A DNA stretch of 64,000 bases from Gallionellaceae bacterium (GTDB lineage Bacteria > Pseudomonadota > Gammaproteobacteria > Burkholderiales > Gallionellaceae), in contig VFLG01000035.1 in NCBI GenBank assembly GCA_009885195.1, forward strand, positions 18,531 to 82,530, in the 5' to 3' direction. Numbering within the stretch: the stretch's first letter is position 1; every line of letters starts with the position of its first letter. Below the pieces are notes generated by a model that did no database searches, was not told the DNA's origin, and saw only the letters and a list, made by a program, of their open reading frames with translations. Both the position numbers and the translations under genes were made by a program. Shown piece by piece: positions 21,778 to 55,320 of this stretch.

Positions 21778-21831
21778 ATGCGTCTCTCTCCCGTGGTTAA
21801 CTACTAAGTATTTTGAATTTATAGGGACACC

Positions 21832-24255
21832 CTAAAGTTCAAGCGCCTCAAATTCGCGCTGATTCACATTGTCTTTCGCCCATGGATCTTTTTCGTCCTG
21901 TAACGCATACAGCAGGCGCTCGTACAGCGCCTTGCGGTTCGCCGCATCCTCCACCATCTGCTGCTTGACGTACTCCAGCCCCACCCGTTCCACATAATGC
22001 ACGGTGCGATCTAGGTAGCGCGCTTGCTCGCGGTAGAGCTGCAGGAAGGCGCCGGTGTATTCCATCACTTCATCGTGCGTTTTGACCTTAACCAGAAACT
22101 GGGCAACCACAGTCTTGATGCCGCCATTGCCCCCCACATAAATTTCCCAGCCAGATTCGACGCCGATCACGCCGACGTCCTTGATGCCGGATTCGGCACA
22201 ATTGCGCGGGCAGCCGGAGACGGCAATCTTGACCTTGTGCGGCGCATACATTTTCCACAACTGCTTTTCCAGATCTATGCCCATCTGCGTGGAATCCTGC
22301 ACGCCGAAGCGACACCACTCGCTGCCCACGCAGGTCTTAACGGTGCGCAGTGCTTTCGCGTAAGCATGGCCGGAAGGCATGTCCAGGTCAGCCCAGACCT
22401 TGGGCAGATCTTCTTTTTTTACGCCGAGCAAATCTATGCGCTGCCCGCCGGTGACCTTGACAGTGGGGATATTGTATTTGTCCGCCACATCGGCAATGCG
22501 CCGCAAATCCTTGGCCGTCGTGACACCGCCGAACATGCGCGGGATTACCGAGAACGTGCCATCCTTTTGAATATTGGCGTGCGCCCGTTCATTGATGAAG
22601 CGCGATTGCGGATCGTCCCTGGCCAAGCGCGGGTGGGCACACAGCACATAGTAATTAAGCCCCGGGCGGCAGCTGGCGCAGCCATTCGGCGTGCTCCATG
22701 CCAGCGCCTGCATGACCTGTGGAATGCTGATCAGCTTTTGTGCGTCAATCGCCTGACGCACTTCTTCGTGGGTCAGTTCGGTGCAACCGCACATCGTCTT
22801 GGTCATATTCAGTGCCGGGGTATAAGCGCCGCCCACCGTCGAGGCCAGCAATTGCTCCACCAGCCCGGTGCAAGAGCCGCACGAAGCGGAAGCCTTGGTG
22901 TGCTTGCGCACATCTTCCAGCGTGAACAAACCCTTTTCTTTGATGGCCTTGACGATCACGCCCTTGCACACGCCATTGCAGCCGCACACCTCCATCGTGT
23001 CCGGCATGCTCGCCGCGCTGCTCTGGCCGAGATGTCCGCTATTGCCCAGATGTGATTGGCCGAACAGCAGGTGATCGCGGATTTCGGCGACGTTCTTGCC
23101 GTCGCGTATCATCTGGAAATACCACGAGCCATCGGTGGTGTCGCCGTACATGACCGCGCCGACCAGCTTGTCATCCTGCAACACTAATTTCTTGTAAACC
23201 CCGCCTGCGGCATCGTGCAGCACAATCTCGTCGGTGTTGTCGTTGCCGGTAAAATCGCCGGCGGAAAATAAATCAATGCCGGTGACCTTGAGCTTGGTCG
23301 AGGTCACCGAACCCTGATAGCGCGCAATGCCCATGCGCGCCAGATGATTGGCGCAAACCTTGGCCATATCGAACAGCGGTGCCACCAGCCCATAAGCCGT
23401 ACCGCGATGCGACACGCATTCACCCACCGCATAAATGCTGGGATCGTAAGTCTGCATGGTGTCGTTGACGACGATACCGCGATTGCAGTAAATGCCAGCC
23501 GACTCGGCCAGTGCCGTGTTGGGGCGTATGCCGACCGCCATCACCAACAGATCGGCGGGGATCTCGCTGCCATCTTTAAAGCGCACTGCCGTAACACGTC
23601 CATCCGGCCCGCCCACCAATTCCTGCGTTTGTTTTTCCAGCAGGAATTTCAGCCCCTTCGCTTCCAAAGAGCTTTGCAGCATTCTGGATGAACTTTGATC
23701 CAGCTGCCGCTCCATCAGCCACGGCAGGATGTGCACCACCGTCACATCCATGCCCCTGAGCGCCAGCCCATTGGCGGCTTCCAGGCCGAGCAGGCCGCCG
23801 CCGATAACCACCGCGTGCTTATATTTTTCCGCTGCGGCGATCATGGCATTGGTGTCCTGAATATCGCGGTAGCTGATCACGCCTTGCAGATCCTTGCCCG
23901 GCACCGGCAGGATAAAAGGGTTGGAACCGGTAGCCAGCAACAGCCGGTCATATTCCGCTTCCGTGCCATCTTCGGCATACACAATTTTTTTTAAGCGGTC
24001 GATACGCACCACTTTTTTGTTAAGGTGCAAGGTAATGTTGTTCTGCTGATACCAATCCAGATCGTTCAGGATAATGTCCTGTATGCCCTGCTCCCCCGCC
24101 AGCACCGGCGACAGCATGATGCGGTTATAGTTGGGATAAGGCTCGGCGCCAAACACGGTGATGTCGTACATATCCGGCATCAGTTTCAGCAACTCCTCCA
24201 GCGTGCGTACCCCCGCCATCCCGTTGCCGACCATAACCAATTTCATTTTTTTCAT
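21832..24255 (-). CDS. nirB: nitrite reductase (NADH) large subunit NirB
   Basis: MKKMKLVMVGNGMAGVRTLEELLKLMPDMYDITVFGAEPYPNYNRIMLSPVLAGEQ; siroheme/4Fe-4S VSGCPRNCAESGIKDVGVIG; start at 24255 rather than 24489. Confidence 0.97.
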   Translation of the reverse strand: MKKMKLVMVGNGMAGVRTLEELLKLMPDMYDITVFGAEPYPNYNRIMLSPVLAGEQGIQDIILNDLDWYQQNNITLHLNKKVVRIDRLKKIVYAEDGTEAEYDRLLLATGSNPFILPVPGKDLQGVISYRDIQDTNAMIAAAEKYKHAVVIGGGLLGLEAANGLALRGMDVTVVHILPWLMERQLDQSSSRMLQSSLEAKGLKFLLEKQTQELVGGPDGRVTAVRFKDGSEIPADLLVMAVGIRPNTALAESAGIYCNRGIVVNDTMQTYDPSIYAVGECVSHRGTAYGLVAPLFDMAKVCANHLARMGIARYQGSVTSTKLKVTGIDLFSAGDFTGNDNTDEIVLHDAAGGVYKKLVLQDDKLVGAVMYGDTTDGSWYFQMIRDGKNVAEIRDHLLFGQSHLGNSGHLGQSSAASMPDTMEVCGCNGVCKGVIVKAIKEKGLFTLEDVRKHTKASASCGSCTGLVEQLLASTVGGAYTPALNMTKTMCGCTELTHEEVRQAIDAQKLISIPQVMQALAWSTPNGCASCRPGLNYYVLCAHPRLARDDPQSRFINERAHANIQKDGTFSVIPRMFGGVTTAKDLRRIADVADKYNIPTVKVTGGQRIDLLGVKKEDLPKVWADLDMPSGHAYAKALRTVKTCVGSEWCRFGVQDSTQMGIDLEKQLWKMYAPHKVKIAVSGCPRNCAESGIKDVGVIGVESGWEIYVGGNGGIKTVVAQFLVKVKTHDEVMEYTGAFLQLYREQARYLDRTVHYVERVGLEYVKQQMVEDAANRKALYERLLYALQDEKDPWAKDNVNQREFEALEL

Positions 24256-52975: not shown

Positions 52976-54388
52976 ATGCGTAGTCGTATTGAGAAATTTG
53001 GATTGATTGGATTGGGCTTAATCGCAGGCGTGCTGGTCAGCCTGCAATTCGCTGCTATTGCCGACAAGAACAGCCCCGAGCCGCTGCCGATAGAAGAATT
53101 ACGTGCCTTCTCCGAGGTGTTTGGCCGTATCAAAAGCGATTATGTGGAGCCGGTCGGTGACAAGAAGCTGATCACCGAAGCCATCAATGGCATGTTGAGC
53201 GGGCTGGATCCGCACTCTTCCTATCTGGATGCCGATGCTTTCAAGGAGCTGCAAGTCGGCACGCATGGCGAGTTCGGCGGCCTGGGCATCGAAGTGGGTA
53301 TGGAAGACGGGCTGGTGAAAGTCATCTCGCCGATTGAGGACACCCCCGCTTATATCGCCGGTATCAAGAGCGGCGATCTCATCATCAAGTTGGACGATGC
53401 ACAGGTAAAGGGCTTGTCGTTAAATGATGCGGTCAAGCGCATGCGCGGCAAGCCGGGCAGCAAAATCGTGCTGACCGTGATCCGCAAGGACACGCCCAAA
53501 CCGCTGATCTTCACCATAACGCGCGCCGTCATCAAGGTGAAGAGCGTCAAACCCAAGATGATAGAGCCTGGCTATGGATTTATCCGCATCACTCAATTTC
53601 AGGATCGCACCGGTGAAAATCTCGCCACTGCGCTGGACAATCTGTTCAAGGAAAACCAGGGCCCATTGAAAGGTCTGGTGCTGGATCTGCGCAACAACCC
53701 GGGCGGCCTGCTCAACAGTGCGGTGGCGGTATCCGCCGCCTTCCTGCCCAAGGATGCGCTGGTCGTTTATACCGAAGGGCGCACCGAAAGCGCCAAGATG
53801 CGCCTGACCGCCGCCCCTGAAAATTATGCCCAGAACCAGGCCGATTACCTGAAGGATCTGCCAGCGGCAGTCAAGGACGTGCCTATCGTATTGCTGGTCA
53901 ATGGCGGCTCCGCCTCCGCTTCGGAAATTGTCGCGGGCGCATTGCAGGATCACAAACGCGCGATCGTCATGGGCACGCAAACGTTCGGCAAGGGTTCGGT
54001 GCAGACCGTTCTGCCGCTGGGCAACAACACCGCGATTAAGCTCACCACCTCGCGCTATTTCACGCCCGGTGGCCGCTCCATCCAGGCCACGGGCATCGTC
54101 CCCGACATCATCATAGAAGACCCGGCGACGGCGGAACAAGACCACACCTTCCGCATGCGCGAAGCTGACCTGGAGCGCCACCTGAGCAATGGAAATGGAC
54201 AACCGCCTGCTGACAAGACGAACGACCGCGCAAAACCGGCAGCCCCGGCCAAGCCCGAGGAAAGCGATGCGGTCAAACCAAAATTTACTGAATTCGGCAC
54301 CAAGGACGATTACCAGCTCACCCAGGCTCTAAACCTGCTCAAGGGTATGAATATCCTGCATGGAGCAGGAGACAGTAAAAAACCGTAA
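52976..54388 (+). CDS. ctpA: S41-family carboxyl-terminal processing protease
   Basis: PDZ GGLGIEVGMEDGLVKVISPIEDTPAYIAGIKSGDLI; VNGGSASASEIVAGALQDHKRAIVMGTQTFGKGSVQ. Confidence 0.95.
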   Translation: MRSRIEKFGLIGLGLIAGVLVSLQFAAIADKNSPEPLPIEELRAFSEVFGRIKSDYVEPVGDKKLITEAINGMLSGLDPHSSYLDADAFKELQVGTHGEFGGLGIEVGMEDGLVKVISPIEDTPAYIAGIKSGDLIIKLDDAQVKGLSLNDAVKRMRGKPGSKIVLTVIRKDTPKPLIFTITRAVIKVKSVKPKMIEPGYGFIRITQFQDRTGENLATALDNLFKENQGPLKGLVLDLRNNPGGLLNSAVAVSAAFLPKDALVVYTEGRTESAKMRLTAAPENYAQNQADYLKDLPAAVKDVPIVLLVNGGSASASEIVAGALQDHKRAIVMGTQTFGKGSVQTVLPLGNNTAIKLTTSRYFTPGGRSIQATGIVPDIIIEDPATAEQDHTFRMREADLERHLSNGNGQPPADKTNDRAKPAAPAKPEESDAVKPKFTEFGTKDDYQLTQALNLLKGMNILHGAGDSKKP

Positions 54389-54410
54389 CTTGATTAAAAC
54401 GCGAAGTGGC

Positions 54411-54561
54411 CATATGGGCGCCTCTAAAAATTCAAAACCCTAAGCGAGACAAGGCGCGAAAGAAATTTTAGCGCGCCGCATATGTTTGATATGTAAGCGT
54501 TAAAATTTCTTGAGCAACACAGTATCGCGACGGGGTTTGGATTTTTAGGGGTGCCCATATG
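54411..54561. mobile_element. MITE-like element, 151 bp, about 28-bp imperfect terminal inverted repeats; its right end contains the moeB start codon
   Basis: CATATGGGCGCCTCTAAAAATTCAAAACC...GGTTTGGATTTTTAGGGGTGCCCATATG; inner hairpin AAGAAATTTTAGCG...CGTTAAAATTTCTT. Confidence 0.82.
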
Positions 54562-55320
54562 AATGACCAACAGTTGCTGCGCTATAGCCGCCACATCCTG
54601 CTGCCCGAGATCGGCATTGAGGGGCAGCAAAAACTACTGGATGCACACGCACTGATCATCGGCGCCGGTGGGCTGGGTTCACCTGCCGCCCTGTTCCTCG
54701 CCGCCAGCGGTGTTGCCACGATTACCCTGTGCGACGGTGACACGGTAGACCTTACCAATCTGCAGCGCCAAATCCTGCATCGCACTTCCAGCATCGGCAT
54801 GGCCAAGGCGGATTCTGCACGCGCCGCGCTGGCCGAGATCAATCCAGAGGTACACGTGGTCGCGCTGAACCAGCGCGTCGATCAAACACATTTACTGGAA
54901 CTGGCGGCGCAGGCCGATGTGGTGCTGGATTGCAGCGACAATTTTGCCACGCGCTATGCGCTCAACCAGGTTTGCGTGCAGTTGAAAAAACCGCTGGTAT
55001 CCGGCGCGGCCACCCGCTTCGACGGCCAGGTGGCGGTGTTTGACCTGCGCCACAACGATAGCCCGTGCTACGGCTGCCTCTACCCAGAACAGGCCGATAC
55101 CGAAGAAACGCGCTGCGCGGTGATGGGCGTATTCGCGCCACTGGTCGGCATCATCGGCAGCATCCAAGCCGCCGAAGCGCTTAAACTCTTGCTGGACGCA
55201 GGCACACCGCTTTGTGGAAGACTGCTGGTGATGGATACACTGCGCATGGAACTGCGCACCATCACGCTGAATAAGGATAGCGCTTGCCCAATCTGCGGCA
55301 TACCAAAATCGGCAAGGTAA
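54559..55320 (+). CDS. moeB: HesA/MoeB/ThiF family adenylyltransferase
   Basis: MNDQQLLRYSRHILLPEIGIEGQQKLLDAHALIIGAGGLGSPAALFLAASGV; DTVDLTNLQRQILH. Confidence 0.93.
   Translation: MNDQQLLRYSRHILLPEIGIEGQQKLLDAHALIIGAGGLGSPAALFLAASGVATITLCDGDTVDLTNLQRQILHRTSSIGMAKADSARAALAEINPEVHVVALNQRVDQTHLLELAAQADVVLDCSDNFATRYALNQVCVQLKKPLVSGAATRFDGQVAVFDLRHNDSPCYGCLYPEQADTEETRCAVMGVFAPLVGIIGSIQAAEALKLLLDAGTPLCGRLLVMDTLRMELRTITLNKDSACPICGIPKSAR

Follow-up and report, generated by a model that had tools for sequence, protein, structure and literature searches.

In the window, our term for the whole 64,000-nucleotide stretch of DNA analysed, ctpA (52976–54388, + strand; ORF list) encodes an S41 C-terminal processing peptidase (PF03572, TIGR00225) and is followed on the same strand by moeB (54559–55320), whose 253-aa product belongs to the ThiF/MoeB family (PF00899, and above the cut-off of the MoeB model NF004281). 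The ctpA-moeB gap begins with what the empty-site reconstruction gives as native spacer (54389–54411, +). At its last position starts an imperfect inverted repeat with arms at 54411–54450 and 54522–54561, 80% complementary in the window sequence. Judged from its sequence, the mobile element within this repeat is a non-autonomous IS5-type miniature inverted-repeat transposable element (MITE) of 141 bp (54416–54556, +), with copies across the genome and the family. It is flanked by the left (54412–54415) and right (54557–54560) copies of a 4-bp target duplication, ATAT. Its terminal inverted repeats (TIRs) occupy 54416–54433 (+; GGGCGCCTCTAAAAATTC) and 54539–54556 (−; GGATTTTTAGGGGTGCCC on the + strand). 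The inner hairpin mentioned in the initial annotation was found at 54460–54474 and 54497–54511 (both +), by inverted-repeat analysis and from covarying pairs.

The limits of the element emerge from its other copies. A genome search with the repeat as query returned dozens of matches, many of which span query positions 12–152, corresponding to window 54416–54556; copy boundaries across the genome fall at the same equivalents, and 141 bp is the modal length (95 of 133 copies). At the moeB copy the apparent repeat is too long because the ATAT/ATAT duplication is self-complementary, the outer CATAT/ATATG being the duplication plus a flanking C and G that are complementary by chance here. The inverted repeats of the 151-bp element initially annotated at 54411–54561 therefore stand, while its limits have to be moved inwards. 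No ORF of at least 80 aa in the ORF list is confined to the element, which is thus short, non-coding and without a transposase.

As DNA, the inverted-repeat stretch has a predicted fold of −43.8 kcal/mol (z −8.4; none of 200 shuffles is equally good), and the leader RNA that includes the element, as produced by read-through, has one of −91.3 kcal/mol (z −8.5). Among 30 non-redundant copies, 94.4% of the palindrome cells are paired. Both sides have changed in 27 of the 48 palindrome pairs, against 14.4 in shuffles (0 of 500 reach the observed value) and 8–11 in a control with slid partners. No Rfam family matched the element, and neither did any of the plasmids and phages searched.

The genome containing the window is partial (1.37 Mb in 86 contigs, 72% complete), and a TIR-pair scan nevertheless finds at least 36 full copies in it, which answers the initial proposal to look for other genomic copies. 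The same scan applied to the first set of fetched loci gave 133 distinct full copies, these 36 included, and a degenerate TIR pattern recovered 102 ends compared with 4 for a reversed-pattern control. A perfect 4-bp direct repeat lies at the ends of 88 of the 133 copies; TTTA, TTAA, TAAA and TTAT are the commonest duplications, giving a preference for T[T/A][A/T]A. The element is present in 29 of the 61 genomes searched (counting the window's own), nearly all of them from Gallionellaceae. A genome of the same genus, of like size and completeness (G002), has zero copies. The window itself also holds, at 21815–21832 on its minus strand, a solitary, diverged TIR-like sequence (GGGTGTCCCTATAAATTC), which adjoins the gene at 21832–24255 on its 3′ side.

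Candidate partners for transposition occur in same-genus relatives, where we found complete IS5-family elements (L176, 1320 bp; L190, 1321 bp; L165) with GGGCACCTCTAAAAA-type ends like those of the MITE and with TTAA or CTAA duplications. The L176 transposase matches the IS5 model NF033581 at 4.5e-85, as well as PF01609/PF05598. Many copies, 4-bp target duplications and IS5-type partners with the same TIR all uphold the original description of the element as MITE-like. Only the outer 16–18 bp are common to the MITE and the complete elements, so we prefer the term IS5-type to that of a simple deletion derivative. Loci matching PF05598 were considered as a longer parent carrying the inner sequence of the MITE and were rejected, because only their outer ends matched. 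IS5-family insertion sequences and MITEs resemble our element in the AT-rich 4-bp duplication and in the ends that it has in common with the NF033581 elements of the genus; it differs in being a 141-bp, non-coding, near-full-length palindrome whose ends double as a complement of the anti-Shine-Dalgarno (anti-SD) sequence. As far as this analysis shows, we provisionally regard it as a new member of the IS5-type MITE families.

According to the initial annotation, the moeB start codon comes from the TIR, as the last three bases of the element, making the protein start transposon-made. In this single copy CATATG...CATATG does resemble repeat tips; however, other copies end at GGTGCCC, each with its own duplication, and the moeB ATG (54559–54561, +) consists of the AT of the duplication plus a native G. 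The native spacer with one ATAT copy restores a pre-insertion gap of 25 nt from the ctpA stop to the moeB ATG. Excising the element and one ATAT in silico yields ...GAAGTGGCC-ATATGAATGACC (in longer form, ...GCGAAGTGGCC-ATATGAATGACC), and the ATG remains intact. Same-genus relatives have an element-free ctpA-moeB junction with a ATGAAYGACSAACA-type start at the same place, a comparison that contradicts a TIR-made ATG. The moeB start is therefore native, with the duplication only re-supplying its first two bases, and we consider a transposon-made start to be virtually excluded. Another relative (G011) also has the native start, in a ctpA-moeB gap that is free of this MITE and contains another palindromic repeat (L320:850-1090; CCACAGAGAACACAGAG ... 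CTCTGTGTTCTCTGTGG), so that one gap has received two repeat families.

What the element may contribute to moeB is a ribosome-binding site. A complete genome of the same genus has a 16S that ends in GGATCACCTCCTTTCT, containing the anti-SD CACCTC; the window's own MAG yielded no 16S. The TIR reads GGGCACCTC and likewise contains CACCTC, so its consensus outward end shows GAGGTG, the perfect complement of the genus anti-SD. The moeB copy carries GGGGTG at 54548–54553 (+), 5 nt from the ATG, and some other ends fused to starts carry degraded versions (GAGATG, GAGCCG). For 14 fused copies from two genomes, the median anti-SD energy is −6.8 kcal/mol at the occupied sites versus −3.1 kcal/mol in the reconstructed leaders (Wilcoxon P = 0.048); comparison medians are −5.5 kcal/mol for native starts in the window and −2.1 kcal/mol for random 20-mers. 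The native SD in the reconstructed leader is weak or absent for moeB, truA, hisH, ilvA and others. In dnaQ, the algR-like gene and L066, a stronger native SD (−8.2 to −10.3 kcal/mol) has been displaced and lies just upstream of the element.

The claimed replacement of moeB's native leader and RBS by the element thus holds anatomically only: the leader lies 145 bp upstream and GGGGTG stands next to the start. In predicted folds of read-through RNA the left arm base-pairs with the TIR SD (P(unpaired) ~0 in 10 of the 14 fused copies), and this SD would become partly accessible (0.17–0.66) if the 5′ end fell in the right arm. A consensus scan of 54300–54700 found no sigma-70-like promoter around the moeB copy. 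We infer that ribosomes may use the TIR as an RBS. A dependence of moeB expression on transposon-derived sequence is plausible, and is complicated by the hairpin, which would mask the TIR SD in read-through transcripts.

The moeB junction has counterparts elsewhere in the genome. Eight of its 36 copies end 0–3 nt before a start codon, those of moeB, truA, hisH, dnaQ, an AlgR-like response regulator, ybeY, ilvA and one unknown gene; Pfam supports truA, hisH (GATase), dnaQ (RNase_T exonuclease), ybeY and ilvA. Two further copies are slightly off, at −1 for a mutM-like gene and at +5 for tatB. As a null we took insertions that spare both neighbours, weighted by the duplication motif, on the simple gene calls of the single 64-kb window. 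This predicts start junctions at 2.8–5.3% of sites (P = 6e-6 to 5e-4 for the observed 8/36), and its strictest form, restricted to gaps of ≤150 bp, predicts 8–9% (P ~0.01). In the relative G011, 6 of 22 copies abut starts; of the G011 copies fetched after the hypothesis had been stated, 5 of 21 do so (P = 2e-4 to 4e-3). The window's genome and G011 together thus have 14 of 58 start junctions against 3–5% expected. Outside the window's genome (G000) and G011 there is no start enrichment, with 5 of 127 matching the null, and we dropped the idea of an enrichment in all lineages. Both counts cover copies from mapped genomes and so exclude L058, where an end abuts a long frame. Five loci in which the duplication is followed by ATG (L109, L003, L100, L127, L150) were rejected as start fusions, since only short frames are opened there.

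Junctions with stop codons, again within 0–3 nt, number 12 of 58 in the window's genome and G011 and 23 of 127 in the others (35 of 185 copies over all lineages), as a TTAA/TAAA-like target motif would lead one to expect. Several start-fused copies lie in gene overlaps or in gaps of a few bp, where a tolerated insertion must be near a start. According to the reconstruction, the upstream stop and the start overlapped in the four bases ATGA at dnaQ and at the AlgR-like gene; duplication of ATGA regenerates both codons, so that the element now separates two intact genes. Target preference and compact gene spacing therefore explain part of the pattern.

Element-free dnaQ and hisH junctions are present in relatives. 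Upstream of hisH, two genomes (G004 and G016; L297, L298) carry a decayed MITE relative whose right end is missing, and these sequences suggest that the hisB-hisH spacer has been hit repeatedly. In the window's genome and in G011, hisH (L030:2040-2150) additionally contains an in-frame, G+C-rich palindromic insertion of ~25–30 codons, of CCCTCTCCCGCTGGCGGGGGAGGG type, which is absent from other relatives and has a weak match elsewhere in G018.

The explanation that we favour, at a probability of roughly 0.6, is that an IS5-type MITE inserted at the native moeB start and that the SD of its TIR makes insertions at start junctions tolerable. The MITE would have been mobilized in trans, with transposase presumably provided by a complete IS5-family element that has the same ends, and would have entered a 4-bp ATAT site that overlapped the native start codon. 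Staggered 4-bp insertion would then have duplicated ATAT, preserving the start and leaving the native leader 145 bp upstream. Insertions at starts normally separate SD and AUG; here they could be tolerated because an end lying 0–3 nt from the start codon would place the GAGGTG/GGGGTG of the TIR at Shine-Dalgarno spacing. In read-through mRNA, use of this SD would first need opening of the hairpin or its cleavage, for example by RNase III.

It is also conceivable, if rather improbable, that an AT-preferring MITE is simply tolerated wherever genes meet and that the TIR SD plays no role. Stop-codon junctions are equally common and fit the target preference, at least 5 of 19 start-fused copies are also 0–1 nt from an upstream stop, and the genomes beyond the enriched pair behave as the null predicts. 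Against this, the start excess in the pair persists after target weighting, and the element lies at the start even though the free gap measured 14–25 nt for moeB, truA and hisH and was wider for ilvA and L066. A split ribosome-binding site, with the hairpin in the mRNA bringing the upstream native SD beside the start and making the TIR SD irrelevant, strikes us as less probable still. There is precedent in genes 38 and 25 of phage T4, where RNA structure lies between SD and AUG (PMC3014915), and the very stable read-through fold, the covariation that keeps the palindrome and the strong SDs directly upstream of the element in dnaQ, the algR-like gene and L066 would all suit it. However, moeB, truA, hisH, ilvA and others lack a strong native SD, the predicted fold pairs the moeB AUG itself within the stem, and the covariation may stem from constraints on DNA or on transposition. 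The T4 structures are small local hairpins and not mobile elements; the ~145-nt hairpin here far exceeds them, and the Gallionellaceae element has an SD-like sequence at its own end. On balance, we retain insertion at a native start, made tolerable by the TIR SD.

Correia elements have a 2-bp TA target duplication, from which the 4-bp duplication of the Gallionellaceae MITE departs. Passages of reviews describe the Correia/NEMIS elements of Neisseria as ~105–155-bp palindromic MITEs that are co-transcribed with genes and whose hairpins are cleaved by RNase III at the TIRs (PMC2229807, PMC10969869); the predicted fold of our element would be compatible with such processing, and start-codon junctions are not mentioned in the passages searched. 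One of these sources portrays the ERIC elements of Enterobacteriaceae, also short mobile palindromes, as lying in transcribed spacers and altering mRNA fate (PMC2229807); the documented effect acts through RNase E on the upstream transcript rather than on downstream initiation. The MITE papers searched report promoters, RNase cleavage, small RNAs and ORF fusions, and not SD-bearing ends at starts; a review of prokaryotic MITEs leaves ribosome and start codon unmentioned, and a paper on Coxiella MITEs reports no insertions at the 5′ ends of genes with known function. The literature searched, whose coverage leaves out most subscription journals, gave no instance of an SD sequence provided by a MITE, and we provisionally consider the start-junction pattern to be new.

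Mobile elements are known for bringing promoters or hairpins. More tentatively, and at odds that we put below even, the ends of this MITE may double as a portable Shine-Dalgarno sequence, allowing start insertions to survive and to change how core genes are translated; the hairpin would then serve as an on/off mask of the SD. Such a reading might extend to the ATGA overlaps, which the 4-bp duplication would resolve into two intact genes, although here too we lean towards doubt. If it is true, transposition would be a simple way of rewiring translation and of splitting overlapping genes without loss. The core genes abutted are dnaQ, hisH, truA, ilvA, ybeY and moeB, and the two species together offer ~14 naturally occupied sites for studying translation past a very stable mRNA hairpin.

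Similar junctions occur in public genomes. The terminal motif followed by NYATG was found in 42 stretches, many from Gallionella, Nitrosomonas and related MAGs, and the ATG opens a long frame in ~16 of them, including, on a by-eye reading of the proteins, ntrC, argD, dinB, comM, rlmL and hisD. At dinB, two genomes (L044/L243, apparently one contig, and L238) have a MITE-type end directly before the start, with identical offsets but with the left end at differing distances.
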